The position numbers and the translations under genes were made by a program. From Capsulimonadaceae bacterium (lineage in GTDB: Bacteria > Armatimonadota > Armatimonadia > Armatimonadales > Capsulimonadaceae): a DNA stretch of 64,000 nucleotides. Each line of letters begins with the position of its first letter. Within the stretch, counting starts at the first letter, position 1. The notes under the pieces were generated by a model. That model ran no database searches and was not told the origin of the DNA. It was given only the letters and a program-made list of their open reading frames with translations. The stretch covers positions 1 through 64,000 of the forward strand of contig JARLGU010000011.1 in the NCBI GenBank assembly GCA_031292625.1, written 5' to 3'. This document shows, in pieces, positions 4,434-41,035 of this stretch.

Positions 4434-5029
4434 CCCACATTAAGCTCTACGTCGAGGGCGGGGGAACCACCAGGAAAGACCAGGGGCCCTGTCGCGAGGG
4501 GTTTAGCAAATTCATCGAGAAGCTAGGGATTGATCCCCGATCGTTTAAAGTCATTGCGTGTGGTGGACGCGCCAACACATTTAAGGACTTCGTTACTGCC
4601 TTCAAACAATCCGAAGACGCCTTTGTGGCGCTTCTCGTCGACAGCGAAGACCCGGTCGCGGACATTGAACAACCGTGGACGCATCTTCGAGAACGGCCCG
4701 GAGATGGTTGGATCGCCCCACCGGGTGCAACGGACAATAACGCGCTGCTCATGGTAACGTGCATGGAAACGTGGCTGACCGCCGACCAAGATGCTATTCG
4801 ACGCATATGCGGATCGACGATTAAGGCGCATCATCTGCCCACAGAAGACCTTGAAACGCGGGACAGACACGTCCTCAAAGACAAGCTTGCCGCAGCCACG
4901 AAAGATTGCAAGAAGACCTACGCCAAAGGCGACGTTTCGTTTGCCATACTCGCTGAAGTCGCCCCGGACAAGCTGGCAAATCTCCCGTCGTTCAATCGCA
5001 TGCGCCGCATACTGCAAGCCAACCTGTAA
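4430..5029 (+). CDS. DUF4276 family protein, putative TOPRIM-like effector
   Basis: This 199-aa protein starts at GTG 4430 inside the stop of the upstream ATPase. A longer open frame upstream is a shadow of the ATPase gene. Near the N-terminus is LYVEGGGTT, with Glu9 in a TOPRIM-like position. ALLVDSEDPV follows at residues 67-76, with Asp71, Glu73 and Asp74 as possible metal ligands. This E...DxxD pattern is what a TOPRIM-like fold would show. DUF4276 proteins commonly accompany AAA_21 ATPases, as here. I infer the ATPase senses and this protein acts as the effector nuclease, but no activity can be read from sequence alone. Both genes interrupt the otherwise conserved darA-holB neighbourhood. 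Confidence 0.75.
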   Translation: MTHIKLYVEGGGTTRKDQGPCREGFSKFIEKLGIDPRSFKVIACGGRANTFKDFVTAFKQSEDAFVALLVDSEDPVADIEQPWTHLRERPGDGWIAPPGATDNNALLMVTCMETWLTADQDAIRRICGSTIKAHHLPTEDLETRDRHVLKDKLAAATKDCKKTYAKGDVSFAILAEVAPDKLANLPSFNRMRRILQANL

Positions 5030-34361: not shown

Positions 34362-35276
34362 TTAGCCGTCCACAAGGCTTGTCAGCGTGACGCCGTCTGG
34401 CATGTCACGGTTCAAGGTAACGACATAGTCGTCGAAACGCCGGGGCGCAGGTACTTTCTCGATCTTGAGCTTATCGAAGAGCTTATGGGCCGGGACATTG
34501 CCGAGAGCATTCTCGTGACTAAATACGTGCAAACCCCGAATAGACATCAGCCCACGCGCCGCCGAATGGTCGAGGTCCCACATCATGGTGAGCGCCGTCC
34601 AGAACAGCTCGAGGTCCTCGCGCGAGACGCCGGTTTGCTTGGCGAAGGCTGGCGTGTAGAAACCGTGCGCGAGGTAGAGACCGTACGGTACAATGGCCTT
34701 CCTGCCCATTTCCGTCGTCTTACCCTTGCCCTTCCCGTCCGCGCCCTCCTCGGACTCTACAACCTGAGCGTCTTCAGGTTTGGTAATTGCAACGCGGGTA
34801 ATCGTTTCGTCAAGCGGAACAATTGGGTCGACGGACCTCGCAAACGTGAGCTGAAAAGGGCCTCGGACTTGCCCTGCGTTCCGTCCAGTTGTCATAACTG
34901 CTCCGAACGAGCGAACGTCATAGAATCGCTTGCACATGATCTTGCGGACCTTGTCAATGTCGTCTCGGTTCTGTTTAGTGCCAGTCGATTTGATGTTAGC
35001 CTCGGCGTAGCCCTCTTCATGCAGCGTATTCAGCGCAATTCCGCGTTCATTCACGTATATCTCGTAGCCCGCAACTCCGTTCTTCGCGGTGGTAACGTAG
35101 TTTCGCACTTTCCGCTTGAGGCATACATCGGTCACGAGACCCTGAAGGGTTTCGGGATCGGTGCGAGGCATGTTCCCTGCGTCTGGGTCGCCGTTCGGAT
35201 TGCCGTCGGTCACATCAAAGAGCATAATGAAATCGTGGCGGCGCTCAGGGTCGCCGCAGACTGTAAAGTTCGCCAT
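34362..35276 (-). CDS. cas7: Type I-C Cascade backbone protein Cas7 (Csd2)
   Basis: A 304-aa RAMP protein that coats the crRNA spacer. Family sequences include HDFIMLFDVTDGNPNGDPDA near the N-terminus, MPRTDPETLQGLVTDVCLKR and the thumb region RSFGAVMTTGRNAGQVRGP. A charged insert (SEEGADGKGKGKTTEMGRK, about 188-206) is longer than I expect for the family. It starts 2 bp after cas8c and is strongly co-translated. Confidence 0.95.
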   Translation of the reverse strand: MANFTVCGDPERRHDFIMLFDVTDGNPNGDPDAGNMPRTDPETLQGLVTDVCLKRKVRNYVTTAKNGVAGYEIYVNERGIALNTLHEEGYAEANIKSTGTKQNRDDIDKVRKIMCKRFYDVRSFGAVMTTGRNAGQVRGPFQLTFARSVDPIVPLDETITRVAITKPEDAQVVESEEGADGKGKGKTTEMGRKAIVPYGLYLAHGFYTPAFAKQTGVSREDLELFWTALTMMWDLDHSAARGLMSIRGLHVFSHENALGNVPAHKLFDKLKIEKVPAPRRFDDYVVTLNRDMPDGVTLTSLVDG

Positions 35277-35278
35277 GT

Positions 35279-37009
35279 TTATTCGTCCTCGTTTTCGGTG
35301 TTGTCAATGTCGTGATCGTTCGTCTTTGCAACCTTCTCGTCATGCTTTGCGATGGCCGTCGCCCGGTCAAACGCCTTTTGATGATAGAATCCAAGGGCGA
35401 ATAAGCCCTGGTCTTTGAGTGTGAGGATCGACGGGAAATCGTCCAATTTGGTGCTAATCTCCATCAAGCGATTGTCGAGAGCGCCATGCCACTTTGGTTT
35501 CGTCTTTCGGATCTTCGGCAAGTGCGCCTTCGTTGCCATGCTGAGCAATAGCGGCATGACGGTCGCGGGCGAGGTCGACGCCGCGCCGTAATAGCGATCC
35601 ACGATATTGGCGCTAATATCACCCACTGCGGCTTTCTGGATGGCAGCGAGGTGGGCCAACAGCCGTCCGCAAACGTACGCCGGGCTGGTGTTTTCCATGT
35701 TTAGGGATGCCATAGGAATATTCGAGACCTCCTCATGAGTAGAAAGGATCATTTTGATAAGTGTTGCGCGGCCGTGGTTGACAGCTCGGTCAGCGCGGCA
35801 GCGCATTATGGTTCGTGCAAGAAGATGTTCTGGAATCGGCTTTCCGAGAATCGCAGCTTGCAAGAGGCCAACGGCGGCGGATGGTTCCATTTCCTTCGAT
35901 GCGGCGCGGTAAGCGGCCGCCGCGACCTTCCAGACGCCCCGGATTGGTCCCGGTGTCCCGTCGAAGTTGACCATGTCCTGTAGCTCAAACCATCGCGCAA
36001 GATTTTGCCGAACAGAACCGAGCGTGGTTGTTATCTGGTCGCGGATCACGACGCGGGCGGCGTTTGCCGAGAGAGCGAAGACGTAGAATTCCTCCTTCAT
36101 TTCGTCATCCAGCTCATAGAGCCGTCCGCTTCGCGCCGAATCGATCAGATCGCGGACCATCTCAGCTTGAGGCTCGTCGATCATGCCCGGGAAATACTCG
36201 TCAGGCCCGTGCTTTGTCCAGAAGACGTAGACGACATTACCGACGATTACTCGATTTTTCTTGTTCGCGATCAGGCGGTTGAGCGCCTTGACGATCCGCT
36301 CGCCAGCGTCGCGGTTGATTGGAGCCGTCTGGGCGCGCTTGAGCCCATGGGATTCAAACGCATTCGAGTTCGCGGATACGAGCGCGACGCCGGACGTCTG
36401 CCCGCCTGGCAAGCCTTTGACCGCCACCGACAAGCTCTCGTCCACCGGGCCGCGTATGCCAGTAACCAGGCACTGGAACTGAGTTCCTGCGTCTCCGTCT
36501 GCATCGCCTCGTGCCGATTTTGCCCAGAACCGCTGCACGGCGACCGAGTCGACGACGAGCTTGTCGCGGTAGCGAAATGTCACGATGTCGCTGGGGTCCA
36601 TGCCGTCTGGCAACTGGGCGGACTGGCTGTCGATCAATCGCAGAACGGCAGTCGCCCCTTCGTCCCCGGTCTCCTCGACGCACTGCTTCACCAACTCGCG
36701 AAACGCCCTATGCTTATCTGCGGCTCGCTTGTCGATAACGCCTTTGCTGTCGGGGATAGCCGCACCGAAGACATAAGAGGGAGTATCGGCGAGCAGAATC
36801 GGACGAATTCCAGCAGTTCTTCCCACAAACGGGATCGTTCGCGGCAGCCCCCGATCCTTCTTGCCATCGCCAGCGTTCGAACTGATCTCGTACCGTCCGT
36901 CGGGCGCAAGCTCAACGATCCAGCGAACCGGCTTGGTTTCATACATCGGCGGCGGCATGTTCTCGCCGATGATTGCCTCAGCGCATTCGTATAGCTTTTG
37001 AAGAATCAT
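35279..37009 (-). CDS. cas8c: Type I-C Cascade large subunit Cas8c (Csd1)
   Basis: A 576-aa large subunit that recognises the PAM and, in type I-C, may also yield an internal small subunit from its 3' part. The N-terminus MILQKLYECAEAIIG and the interior VFGAAIPDSKGVIDKRAADKHRAF fit Csd1. The C-terminal half is helical (AMASLNMENTSPAYVCGRLLAHLAAIQ-like) and contains several candidate internal starts, as expected for a translated Cas11c. It starts at ATG 37009, overlapping the cas5c stop by 4 nt. Confidence 0.93.
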   Translation of the reverse strand: MILQKLYECAEAIIGENMPPPMYETKPVRWIVELAPDGRYEISSNAGDGKKDRGLPRTIPFVGRTAGIRPILLADTPSYVFGAAIPDSKGVIDKRAADKHRAFRELVKQCVEETGDEGATAVLRLIDSQSAQLPDGMDPSDIVTFRYRDKLVVDSVAVQRFWAKSARGDADGDAGTQFQCLVTGIRGPVDESLSVAVKGLPGGQTSGVALVSANSNAFESHGLKRAQTAPINRDAGERIVKALNRLIANKKNRVIVGNVVYVFWTKHGPDEYFPGMIDEPQAEMVRDLIDSARSGRLYELDDEMKEEFYVFALSANAARVVIRDQITTTLGSVRQNLARWFELQDMVNFDGTPGPIRGVWKVAAAAYRAASKEMEPSAAVGLLQAAILGKPIPEHLLARTIMRCRADRAVNHGRATLIKMILSTHEEVSNIPMASLNMENTSPAYVCGRLLAHLAAIQKAAVGDISANIVDRYYGAASTSPATVMPLLLSMATKAHLPKIRKTKPKWHGALDNRLMEISTKLDDFPSILTLKDQGLFALGFYHQKAFDRATAIAKHDEKVAKTNDHDIDNTENEDE

Positions 37010-37626
37010 GCGCCGCCTCCTTCGTAAAGAGAATCCGGGACGTAGAGAACGCCGCCGTCGAGCCGCGCATTAAAGAAACGCGGGGTGGCCCGCTCCGGCC
37101 CGTAATCGAGGTCAAACAGCAGCCGTCCGAGATCGCGGTTGTCGTCGATTGGCTTCGCGGTCCCGTCCACCGGCCCAAAGCCAGCCGCAAACTCACGGCA
37201 TCCAAGGTATGGCCGCTGCCAGCATTGGCCGCGCTCGATGCGGCGGCGAAATTGGTCGCGATATTTTGCAGGGTCGGCGTCGGTTGATCCTGCCGGAATG
37301 TAAACATCCGCGCGGATAATATACGCGACATCCTTGAGCACCAGGCTGCTGCGCTGTGCGCGGTCGTCGGTGATCGAGATGCCATTGTTGCGAGGCGAGG
37401 CGCGGGAACTCACTTCGTTGCGCAGGATCGACAGGTGCTTGATCGGATTGAGCACGACAATCTCGCGCACGCGCCAGCGCATCGGCTTGTGCCAGAAGAT
37501 CGCCTCAAGCACCCCTCGCGCCGCCGACGGCGTTATAACGGGATAAGTAACGCGCTCAGTCTTAAATTCGCTCGTGAAGAGCGCGTAGGGTCCCCACACT
37601 TTAACTTCAACCGGTGGGTAGTTCAT
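37006..37626 (-). CDS. cas5c: Type I-C crRNA-processing endonuclease Cas5c (Csd5)
   Basis: A 206-aa RAMP endonuclease that replaces Cas6 in type I-C and cuts each repeat 3' of its hairpin to leave the 11-nt handle. MNYPPVEVKVWGPYALFTSE and TYPVITPSAARGVLEAIFW are characteristic. The tyrosine/histidine/lysine catalytic triad lies in this N-terminal third. AGGAGG precedes ATG 37626. It is the first cas gene after the small XRE regulator. Relevant here, it should also recognise the degenerate repeat at 38086-38116. Confidence 0.95.
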   Translation of the reverse strand: MNYPPVEVKVWGPYALFTSEFKTERVTYPVITPSAARGVLEAIFWHKPMRWRVREIVVLNPIKHLSILRNEVSSRASPRNNGISITDDRAQRSSLVLKDVAYIIRADVYIPAGSTDADPAKYRDQFRRRIERGQCWQRPYLGCREFAAGFGPVDGTAKPIDDNRDLGRLLFDLDYGPERATPRFFNARLDGGVLYVPDSLYEGGGA

Positions 37627-37693: not shown

Positions 37694-37915
37694 CTAGTTG
37701 TACGGACACGGTCCTAAAAGCGATTGGATCTCCCGCAGATAGCTCTCAGGAATGGCCTTTTGGCCTTGTTCCCATTCAGAAATTCGGCCCGGATGAATGT
37801 CAAGCCTATACGCCAAATCACTCTGGCGCATGCCGGCACACAGGCGCTGTTCATAAAGCCATTGTCCCATGGGAGTTTGGCGAGGCCTTGTTGCTGGCCG
37901 CGGTATCTTTTTCAT
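37694..37915 (-). CDS. Small XRE-type HTH regulator inside the cas locus
   Basis: A 73-aa DNA-binding protein with a single XRE helix-turn-helix (LYEQRLCAGMRQSDLAYRLD, then IHPGRISEWEQGQKAIPESY). A basic N-terminal tail (KKIPRPATRPRQTP) may add DNA contacts. ATG 37915 is chosen because GGAG lies 7 bases upstream; a longer frame reaches into a hairpin region. It is 67 bp upstream of cas5c and 172 bp downstream of the crRNA-like element. It is probably an autoregulator of the cas operon and may bind the TTCGAAATCTAG arms there. No toxin partner was recognised. Confidence 0.8.
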   Translation of the reverse strand: MKKIPRPATRPRQTPMGQWLYEQRLCAGMRQSDLAYRLDIHPGRISEWEQGQKAIPESYLREIQSLLGPCPYN

Positions 37916-38007: not shown

Positions 38008-38038
38008 GGCAGCCAGGAACTGCAATTTCCTGGCTGCC
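38008..38038 (-). terminator. Hairpin closing the crRNA-like unit
   Basis: GGCAGCCAGGAA and TTCCTGGCTGCC form a perfect 12-bp stem with a 7-nt loop. On the minus strand it begins 47 nt after the handle of the degenerate repeat, so it may define the 3' end of a small RNA or attenuate read-through into xre-cas5c. No T-run follows. Confidence 0.6.
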
Positions 38039-38116
38039 ACCCAAACTTCGAGCAATCGTAAGAATAGAATTGTTCGAAATCTAGTGTTTCAATCCTCTCA
38101 TGAACCTATCATCATG
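38039..38116 (-). ncRNA. crRNA-like RNA: degenerate repeat plus self-matching spacer
   Basis: On the minus strand a small hairpin, CATGA/TCATG with an 8-nt loop (38099-38116), is followed by GAGAGGATTGAAAC (38086-38099). This is identical to the last 14 nt of the array repeat and includes the complete 11-nt crRNA handle. The rest of the repeat is different. The next 13 nt, ACTAGATTTCGAA (38085 downward), are repeated as a protospacer at 38148-38160. The match begins exactly at spacer position 1 and continues imperfectly for about 20 more nt. This is the layout of CreA/CreR-type regulatory guides of type I systems (pseudo-repeat, partially matching spacer, target in a nearby promoter). Transcription is not proven. 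Confidence 0.6.
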
Positions 38117-38147
38117 GTCGTCTGAGCCGTGCAGTCAATAGCAGTTT

Positions 38148-38187
38148 ACTAGATTTCGAATAATCTATTTTACGGTTTCTGTGTAAA
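38148..38187 (-). promoter_or_regulatory. Putative cas-operon promoter overlapping the self-protospacer
   Basis: On the minus strand TTTACA (38182-38187), a 16-bp spacer and GATTAT (38160-38165) form a moderate promoter firing toward the crRNA-like unit, xre and cas5c. The plus strand at 38148-38160 carries the 13-nt match to the crRNA-like spacer, preceded by TTT at the PAM position (type I-C usually prefers TTC). A guide complex bound here would cover the -10 and start site. Confidence 0.5.
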
Positions 38188-38287: not shown

Positions 38288-40564
38288 TTACGCCTGCAAA
38301 TCCAGCGGGTCGTACAGGACCGACCCGCCAATGCCTTTGAGGCGGTCATACGGCGCCACCCAGGCATAAAGGTCGTCGTTGAGAGCCTCAATCTTTCCTT
38401 CCTTTGCCAACCGTATAACTTCGTTTTGCCGCACCGCGACCGTGTACGGCTGAACTCGCCTCCAGAGCGAGCGGTTCATCGACCGTTGCCTGGCATGTGT
38501 CTCGCGGATTTCGTCGAGGATAGCACCTGCCGTTGCGTTATATGGGCAGAGGACCGGTACCGTGTCGTCCTTGATCAACTTCATCTTTTCGGCGACTTGT
38601 GGAAAGTCGAAGCGGCGACGGAGTTCTTGGACGCCTTCCTGGTCGAGCCCGGCATCCCCAAGACGCGCATAGAGGTGCGCGAAGTAATCAGTCGGCACAT
38701 CCGCGTCGTTGAGTTTCCGGTCCCCAAGGTACCAATCGATATAGAGCTTGGCCTGGTCGCATTCGGTTTGATATGTCCCCTTCGGTGTGCCGCCATCCCT
38801 CGGCTCAAAGACGATCACTTCACTCTCGTCGCGCAGTCGCAAACCTTCCCTGTTCACACGGCCAGCGGCTTGCACGATCCGGTCAAGCGGACCGTGCGCA
38901 CGGTAGCCGCGTGGAAAGCTGATGTCGACGCCTGCCTCGATTACCTGCGTCGAGACAAGGTGGATTGGCGGACCGCCATTTTCGCGCTCACGCCGCAGAG
39001 CCTCCTTCACTTCGTCGATGACATCCCGGCGATGATCTGCGCATAGCAGAGTCGAAAGGTGGCGAACGTTTTCGCCTGCAAGGGCATCAACAAGCGCGAG
39101 CGCATCCCGCTTTGTGTTGAGTACGACCAGCGTCGAACAGTTCGCCTCGCGGATTTGCTTTGCCAAATCATCCCAACTCAACGGATCGGTCGCAAACCGG
39201 AACGTCACGCGGTTCAAAGATTCAAAATGTTCGTTGATCTGCGTCTCACCTACGATCGGCCGCACATCAAAACCGTGGACAAAGGCCGACTCACCCGCAA
39301 GTGCCGGCTGCGTCGCACTGCAAAGAACAAGCGAAACCCCAAAATTGTGCGTAAGTGATTGAAGGCCGCTAAGAAGCGGGGTCAACAGCTTAACCGGAAG
39401 CGTCTGAACCTCGTCGAGAATGACTACGCTCTCAGCGATATTGTGGAGTTTGCGGCACCGGGAGGTCTGATTTGAAAAGAGGCTCTCGAAGAACTGGACT
39501 GCCGTTGTCACGATGAGCGGCGCATCCCAGTTTTCGGCAGCGAGACGCCTCGCGGCATCCCGGTCATCTGCGTCCTCGTCGCTCCACTTAGCCTCGCGCA
39601 CGGCAGAATGGTGTTCAAGAACCGCATTCTCGCCAAGCACTTTGCGGAACACTGCGGCCGTTTGATCGATGATACTGGTATATGGGATCACGTAAATGAT
39701 CCTGCGGAGCTTGTTCGCCTGTGCATGTCCGAGGGCGAACGCGAGCGACGAAAGAGTCTTGCCGCCACCCGTAGGGACCGCAAGACTAAAGACGCCCGGG
39801 GGCTCGCTTGAAGCGTAGAGGCACGCATCGTAAACCTCGCGCCGCACCCGTGCGACATCGGTTTCAGGCCCAGGTTGAAGCAACGAGGCGATATGTTGGT
39901 CCAGCTTGAGTATCCAGCCGCCAAGCACGGATTCAAGCGCTATCGCTTTCTCACGCAAGGCCGATTCTTCTGGGTGCTGGTGCCTTTCAGTGTCTAGGCT
40001 ATCGGCATCGACGAGGCACGAAAACAGAAATCGCAACATCATCTCGTGTGCGAAATAATCTCTTTCAAGCGATGCAGGGAGTGTTGCGTCGCTGATGTCG
40101 ATTTTGCGAAAATGCTGATCGAGATAAGTGCGCGCAGTTGTGACCACTACGTCGAAATCATCGAAATCGTTAACACGTGCCTTGCGCTGCGTTTGCTCAT
40201 TCTGTACGCCCGAGTTGCACAGCAACCCTCCGTGATGTCCGAGCACGCACTGAATTGCTCGATCCCGCATAATTGGTGGAAGTGCATCCCGAACCAGCGC
40301 CGCGCCGACTGCTTTGTGCTCAGCGCTACCGGGCTTGGGACGAGGACCCTTGCCTTGTTCGGCCTTCCAGCAAAGTCGAAGATACTGCTGAAACGCATCG
40401 CTGAACTTGCCGGCATCGTGATAAAGTCCGCAAACACGAGCCAGCGTCCCGCAGCCGAACGGTGCCCCAAACTCCTCCGCGCTGTCCGCGACGGCGGCTA
40501 GGTGTTCCACAAGGTCGTGCCAGGGGCCGCCGGGGCGGCTGGGCGTGTGAGCGTAGTAATCCAT
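38288..40564 (-). CDS. cas3: CRISPR-associated helicase-nuclease Cas3
   Basis: A 758-aa effector that unwinds and degrades target DNA after Cascade binding. The N-terminal HD nuclease domain shows HDLVEHL (residues 16-22) and GLYHDAGK (46-53). The helicase part has Walker A VPTGGGKTLSSLAF near 263 and the DExx motif VVILDEVQTLP near 380. SATQPAL (motif III) and a C-terminal helicase core with VSTQVIEAGVDISFPRGY and QAAGRVNREG complete it. The start is ATG 40564 with GGAG upstream; the open frame before it is spurious. It is the first gene of the locus but is separated from cas5c by the 372-bp regulatory gap and xre. Confidence 0.95.
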   Translation of the reverse strand: MDYYAHTPSRPGGPWHDLVEHLAAVADSAEEFGAPFGCGTLARVCGLYHDAGKFSDAFQQYLRLCWKAEQGKGPRPKPGSAEHKAVGAALVRDALPPIMRDRAIQCVLGHHGGLLCNSGVQNEQTQRKARVNDFDDFDVVVTTARTYLDQHFRKIDISDATLPASLERDYFAHEMMLRFLFSCLVDADSLDTERHQHPEESALREKAIALESVLGGWILKLDQHIASLLQPGPETDVARVRREVYDACLYASSEPPGVFSLAVPTGGGKTLSSLAFALGHAQANKLRRIIYVIPYTSIIDQTAAVFRKVLGENAVLEHHSAVREAKWSDEDADDRDAARRLAAENWDAPLIVTTAVQFFESLFSNQTSRCRKLHNIAESVVILDEVQTLPVKLLTPLLSGLQSLTHNFGVSLVLCSATQPALAGESAFVHGFDVRPIVGETQINEHFESLNRVTFRFATDPLSWDDLAKQIREANCSTLVVLNTKRDALALVDALAGENVRHLSTLLCADHRRDVIDEVKEALRRERENGGPPIHLVSTQVIEAGVDISFPRGYRAHGPLDRIVQAAGRVNREGLRLRDESEVIVFEPRDGGTPKGTYQTECDQAKLYIDWYLGDRKLNDADVPTDYFAHLYARLGDAGLDQEGVQELRRRFDFPQVAEKMKLIKDDTVPVLCPYNATAGAILDEIRETHARQRSMNRSLWRRVQPYTVAVRQNEVIRLAKEGKIEALNDDLYAWVAPYDRLKGIGGSVLYDPLDLQA

Positions 40565-41035
40565 GACAAGACTCCAGCGAAACAGACTATGCTGCGGTAG
40601 GAGGCGCGCCGCCGCCAAATCAGGCGTCCGTACAGACACTCGTTTGCTGACGGGAAAACCGGAAGCGCTTGCGAAAAACAAATCGCCGGATTAGCACATA
40701 GCTGCGGCAAGGCTCGTCTGATACCCAATTTAGTATGTTAATGCGCAATCGATTGGAATCCTGCAAGAAAATGGGGATCAATATTGCGGGGGATGAGAAG
40801 CTCCAGCGGCTCACATGCGGGCAAAAGGTTCACGAACACCTTGCCCGGTCGGGATCCCCATTCGCACGATGTCCCGCGTCAGATGCTTGACCTCGCCATG
40901 TATCCGGTAAACGCTGTAGGTCGTCGACCACCAAGCTCGGCGACAACAAGGTCAGCGAGACCAACCGCGTCCCCAAGCCGCCGCCCTGCCCTATCCTGGC
41001 CGCGCCGCGCGCGACAGGCGGGTACAATAGAAGGC
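40565..41035. other. Divergent gap between cas3 and rlmI
   Basis: This 471-bp stretch holds no gene that I can support; long open frames here are extensions of the flanking genes. A -10-like TACAAT (41023-41028) sits 7 nt before the rlmI ATG without a good -35. I see no clear cas3 promoter. Confidence 0.4.

Follow-up and report, generated by a model that had tools for sequence, protein, structure and literature searches.

The window, by which we mean the whole stretch of 64,000 nucleotides that was analysed, carries on its minus strand a complete-looking type I-C CRISPR-Cas system in the order cas3-xre-cas5c-cas8c-cas7-cas4-cas1-cas2, together with an array of about 19 repeats. Pfam assigns the products to Cas3, HTH_3 (xre), Cas5c, Cas8c/Csd1, Cas7, Cas4, Cas1 and Cas2. 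The gap between cas3 and xre contains a solitary degenerate repeat, again on the minus strand, the last 14 nt of which (GAGAGGATTGAAAC) are the end of the array repeat and the remainder of which has diverged. This lone repeat, with its retained 11-nt crRNA handle, had been described in a first-pass annotation, and we confirm it (Table 1).

Table 1. Coordinates of the cas genes and of the elements of the solitary repeat unit in the window
Feature	Position	Strand	Details
CRISPR array	~30.8-32.2 kb		repeat GTTGCTCCGCTCCCTCGGGGGCGGAGAGGATTGAAAC
cas8c and cas7	34362..37009	-	remaining Cascade genes; Pfam
cas5c	37006..37626	-	Pfam Cas_Cas5d
xre	37694..37915	-	small XRE-family HTH gene (73 aa); HTH_3, E = 1.9e-6; local to window locus
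Hairpin closing the unit	38008..38038	-	12 bp
Pseudo-spacer (guide), first 36 nt	38050..38085	-	begins ACTAGATTTCGAACAATTCTATTC
Repeat 3' 14 nt	38086..38099	-	11-nt crRNA 5' handle AGGATTGAAAC at 38086-38096
Pseudo-repeat hairpin	38099..38116	-	CATGA-8-TCATG; weak, p = 0.47 against shuffles
Candidate promoter P2	38111..38138	-	TTGACT-16-CATGAT; just past PAM side of protospacer
PAM position	38145..38147	+	TTT; TTC or TTT in relatives
Protospacer	38148..38183	+	first 13 nt identical to spacer nt 1-13
Candidate promoter P1	38160..38187	-	TTTACA-16-GATTAT; inside or at edge of protospacer
Candidate promoter P0	38208..38236	-	TTGACT-17-TAACCT; consensus scoring, not evidence of function; protospacer at about +19 to +57
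cas3	38288..40681	-	upstream of unit; Pfam

Directly after the handle the minus strand reads ACTAGATTTCGAA (38085-38073), and a second copy of these 13 nt lies about 62 nt upstream on the plus strand (38148-38160), beside the TTT; that the identity begins at spacer position 1, as was claimed earlier, is borne out. Aligned without gaps, spacer and target agree at 16 of the first 17 positions, with a mismatch at 14, and the match is lost beyond nt 17. The reported continuation through TCTATT and TTACG requires gaps and hence should not count. In 20,000 spacer shuffles the chance of the match was p <= 5e-5 with a TT(C/T) PAM and about 1e-4 without the PAM rule. The combined seed and PAM pattern (TTYACTAGNTTTCGNA) occurs only once in the 5.77-Mb genome when at most one mismatch is allowed, namely at 38145-38160, and no further guide target was found at that threshold; two-mismatch matches were no commoner than those of a reversed control pattern.

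The secondary structures and promoter elements proposed for the unit fared less evenly. The CATGA/TCATG hairpin of the pseudo-repeat is present in the sequence but scores no better than shuffled sequences, and the 12-bp hairpin that closes the unit was found but lacks a T-tract and therefore does not qualify as a canonical intrinsic terminator. A downstream hairpin is also present in several other units. The target, said to overlie a putative -10 region, does so for one candidate promoter; two more candidates adjoin it. A search of the unit against Rfam gave no match.

Related loci were surveyed in a sample of 126 distinct I-C loci, duplicates removed, from Armatimonadota and, by way of a Cas5c alignment, from other phyla. 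The alignment search kept 80 loci of about 600 matched, and the sample favours relatives of the Cas5c of the window; a scan of the genome collection with the Cas8c protein returned no matches. In a scan that was blind to the handle, a 17-nt stretch was compared with a TTC- or TTT-flanked copy in 83 gap regions (23.3 kb), the score counting 15 positions with 6 and 12 omitted. Nine pairs reached at least 14/15, seven of which begin right after TTGAAA, compared with 0.26% of background positions (P about 3e-17); the remaining two are plain hairpins. Dinucleotide shuffles of the gap regions yielded no pairs in 19 of 20 replicates. When the test was instead anchored on the handle, 15 of 89 non-array handle-like sites had p <= 0.01, every one of them upstream of cas5c and 14 with cas3 on the other side, the exception (L003) sitting on a truncated contig. 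The best target chosen without a PAM rule was still flanked by TTC or TTT in all 15.

Together with one weak unit (L018, p = 0.22), this gives 16 units among the 126 loci, all upstream of Cascade genes. Each carries a distinct spacer and has, close by, a target of its own that adjoins a TTC or TTT PAM; in L003 and L017 the assignment of the target depends on omitting positions 6 and 12. Besides the window, the Armatimonadota contribute L003, L017, L018, L020, L026, L048, L129, L150 and L156, and the others come from Salinivenus (L034), Oscillochloris (L045), Poribacteria (L046), a gammaproteobacterial MAG (L063), a planctomycete (L068) and a proteobacterial MAG (L093). Where the gap measures 150-1300 nt, 15 of 28 loci have a unit, and the 88 loci with shorter gaps have none. 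The loci of Thermus, Deinococcus, Zymomonas, Leptolinea and a Desulfovibrio plasmid have no unit because their gaps are too short. Handles in L037, L040, L077 and L088 had no target matches. Five units (L020, L034, L045, L046 and L063) end at most 100 nt before the first Cascade gene and thus lie inside the leader of that gene. In L068 and L093 the unit faces the other way from cas5c, and its target lies between them. Across units the targets lie at about -75 to +60 relative to the best predicted promoters, and that of L129 overlies a TTGACA-18-TATAAT promoter. In L045, two pseudo-repeats occupy the cas5c leader (4813-4900), and the target/spacer sequence TATTT(A/C)GT..ATGTACA occurs there as three related tandem copies.

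The way in which spacer and target agree differs sharply from one position to the next. Positions 1-3, 5 and 10 match in 16 of 16 units and positions 4 and 7 in 15, so that positions 1-5 pooled give 79 matches out of 80; the remaining positions as far as 11, except 6, match in 13-16 units. In contrast, matches are few at positions 6 (1/16), 12 (5/16) and 18 (3/16). The choice of target has little influence on this pattern: with positions 1-11 weighted equally the targets were unchanged in 14 of 16 units, and position 6 then had 13 mismatches as against 0-3 at the other positions up to 11. Type I crRNAs pair in a base-flipping rhythm, in which positions 6, 12 and 18 are the flipped-out guide bases, and the pile-up of mismatches at these three positions is explicable only if the guide pairs with its target within a type I effector. 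At protospacer position 6 the flipped base is A in 14 units and G in two, compared with an A content of 33% in the rest of the targets (P about 1e-5), and the spacer base at this position varies among the units.

Spacers and targets also change together. Seed matches number 8-10 of 10 within each locus, whereas pairs across loci average 3.1 and do not exceed 7. In the cas3-cas5 gap of the relatives the handle is kept, and in all relatives with units the identity of spacer and target starts at the junction of handle and spacer; these points, together with co-variation, are among those on which the first-pass annotation had proposed that its reading be judged. Where the array handle itself is variant, as in L068 (TGGATTGAAAC) and L156 (CGGATTGAAAC), the unit bears the same variant as its array. 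Within this family the window unit departs in some respects: it alone has matches at both 6 and 12, its PAM is TTT rather than the canonical TTC, its pseudo-repeat hairpin is weak, and xre comes between it and cas5c.

We consider it highly probable that the window unit is a CreR-type autorepressor RNA of subtype I-C that acts on the Cascade genes. The co-variation, the PAMs and the mismatch rhythm in the relatives support the original suggestion of a CreA/CreR-like guide on its own cas promoter region, and we infer that the unit is expressed and exerts repression. Transcription of the unit would run together with that of the Cascade operon leader or take place immediately upstream of it. In type I-C, Cas5c takes care of pre-crRNA processing and clamps the handle (PMC7684278); it would bind the handle of the unit and perhaps cut the degenerate repeat, whereupon an RNA with the predicted 5' end AGGAUUGAAAC-ACUAG could enter the I-C Cascade in the manner of a crRNA. 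Cascade charged with this guide would recognise TTT followed by ACTAGATTTCGAA and occupy the promoter region that feeds xre-cas5c-cas8c-cas7, blocking transcription without calling Cas3 onto its own locus. Destruction by Cas3 would not be expected, as the match is confined to about 16 of the first 17 bases. Interference by the I-C system of Xoo requires at least 27 bp of matching guide (PMC8406640), so a match of 16-17 bp should leave the locus undestroyed. Cas levels would then drop while unoccupied Cascade is abundant and climb once array crRNAs or anti-CRISPR proteins occupy it.

CreR RNAs, which regulate cas genes, have been reported for types I-B, I-E and V-A (PMC13131331; also described in PMC12737573). 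A search of the literature for CreR in type I-C found none; the original CreR description lies outside that literature, so an earlier mention of type I-C is possible. All CreR features that can be tested on sequence are found in the window unit: a predicted crRNA-like RNA from a solitary degenerate repeat in a cas locus, a partial match to a cas promoter region with predicted autorepression, and pairing that is limited to the first 17 nt, below the trigger of destruction. The family further shows seed pairing that tolerates mismatches at positions 6 and 12, although the window itself matches at both. Unlike the known CreR RNAs, these units belong to a subtype without Cas6, in which processing would fall to Cas5c; they sit in the cas3-cas5c gap, several within the 5' leader of cas5c, and mostly have one upstream pseudo-repeat (two in L045).

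The pairing is reminiscent of CreA as well. In the haloarchaeal I-B CreA of CreTA, nt 1-5 and 7-11 pair next to a TTC PAM, the 6th and 12th nt being freely exchangeable (PMC8501985), while the I-F CreA of Acinetobacter lies in the cas3-csy1 gap and has mismatches at 6, 11 and 18 (PMC10097628). Shared with these are a pseudo-repeat plus spacer, a PAM-flanked partial target near a promoter, base pairs at nt 1-5 and 7-11 where mismatches at 6 and 12 are tolerated and, with the I-F element, the position directly after cas3. In contrast to the CreA of CreTA, the target in the window feeds Cascade genes, through xre. Phage RNA anti-CRISPRs (Racr), which are viral and sequester Cas proteins (PMC10651486), likewise derive a crRNA-like RNA from a solitary CRISPR repeat, as predicted for the window, but the window unit lies inside a cas operon, with a guide matched to the promoter, and the first 21 nt of its spacer have no exact match in viral contigs.

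The likeness to CreA raises the possibility of an addiction module of the CreTA or CrePA kind, in which the guide would repress xre or a small RNA or peptide from the same promoter, loss of Cascade would free something harmful, and regulation of the Cas proteins would be secondary. The xre gene does lie between unit and cas5c, and its HTH has a weak match to YdaS-like toxins, below the cut-off; a CrePA-like module would have a protein toxin driven by the target promoter. Variable small genes, such as an HNH gene and unidentified ORFs, fill the same slot at other loci, and Streptomyces I-C loci have a comparable unit ahead of a small hydrophobic ORF. However, no toxic RNA was found between target and guide in the window, where the roughly 30 nt between the target and the pseudo-repeat hairpin leave no room for a toxin gene, and in at least five loci (those whose unit ends close to the first Cascade gene) cas5c or cas7 follows within 100 nt, again without such room. 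Since xre, moreover, is not conserved at other cas loci, we regard addiction as an unlikely explanation for the window unit.

The part played by xre deserves separate mention. Its presence next to the unit, remarked upon in the first-pass annotation, holds for the window but not for the other cas loci, none of which was found to carry it, although the phylum holds weak homologues; it is therefore not a general part of the arrangement, and we rejected it as a conserved partner. At other loci the slot contains no gene, an HNH gene (L129) or the small ORFs, and in view of this variability xre is best seen as local cargo. It could still be the real target gene of the guide, or an additional one. 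Small ORFs that resemble one another (about 75-85 aa, K/NPGIVV...HP...NYP) and have no Pfam match are placed like xre in L048, L150 and L156. The interval between unit and cas5c in L017 and L018 contains another shared ORF of about 120 aa (..YIPD..AEAE..H..QW..F..), possibly frameshifted in L017 and with no convincing Pfam match.

In the Streptomyces loci, which comprise a plasmid of Streptomyces microflavus (L215, in the cas3-cas5c gap), S. cyaneofuscatus (L218) and S. anulatus (L207), a degenerate handle (AGGATCGCAAC or AGGGTCGCAAC) is followed by a spacer that matches a TTC- or TTT-flanked site just upstream of an ORF for a hydrophobic peptide of 41-44 aa. Mismatches fall at 6, 12 and 15 in L215 and L218 and at 9 and 12 in L207. 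These are candidates for an I-C module of the CreTA/CrePA type; alternatively, the spacer may pair antisense to the mRNA.

Three further readings of the window unit are weaker still. Both copies of ACTAGATTTCGAA might be operators of the adjoining XRE regulator, a kind of protein that binds repeated sites, with the neighbouring handle a coincidence; this is scarcely credible, given that equivalent pairs with unrelated sequences exist at loci without xre, that the match begins at the handle and beside a PAM, and that other loci skip positions 6, 12 and 18. The inverted arrangement of the copies, noted earlier as unusual, recurs in six other units and would allow them to pair as a stem or attenuator in a leader RNA, but 9 of the 16 units have direct copies, which Cascade could bind on either strand and which cannot form a stem, so we reject this very improbable reading. 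A functionless remnant of an ordinary decayed array, with an accidental or self-acquired spacer, is hardly to be entertained either: solitary degenerate repeats do occur and the pseudo-repeat is unlike the array except at its 3' end, but 824 array spacers scored in the same way against their own gaps reached at most 12/15, and that once, the start of the spacer is absent from viral contigs, and decay fails to explain 16 co-located units with their own targets and PAMs in unrelated hosts.

By its signature, the window unit is thus a member of a family that spans several phyla, and autorepression of the CreR type remains our preferred reading of it. We lean, by a small margin of belief, towards a more general proposal, that guide-directed self-repression is a general and so far undescribed layer of type I-C immunity across many phyla, exerted by a Cas5c-processed single-repeat guide in the Cascade leader and diverted in some lineages to cargo or toxin genes, as the variable neighbours and the small hydrophobic peptides of Streptomyces may indicate. 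Type I-C is among the commonest CRISPR subtypes (PMC7684278). Little is known about how it limits its own expression, and a guide family with a clear sequence signature makes autorepression directly testable, including in the cultured Salinivenus iranica CB7 and possibly in Tistrella mobilis. Anti-CRISPR proteins against type I-C would be predicted to raise cas expression wherever such a unit exists. Further guides may be sought by a simple rule, that is, a handle followed by matches at positions 1-5 and 7-11 to a nearby TTC- or TTT-flanked site. In plasmid pTM3 of Tistrella mobilis KA081020-065 (L202), the cas3-cas5c gap contains a handle TGGGTTGAAAC whose spacer, TGATGTTTTTGGAAG, has a target flanked by TTC. 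Mismatches fall at 3, 6, 12, 15 and beyond, which makes this a further but weaker candidate for an I-C CreR, in a cultured organism.
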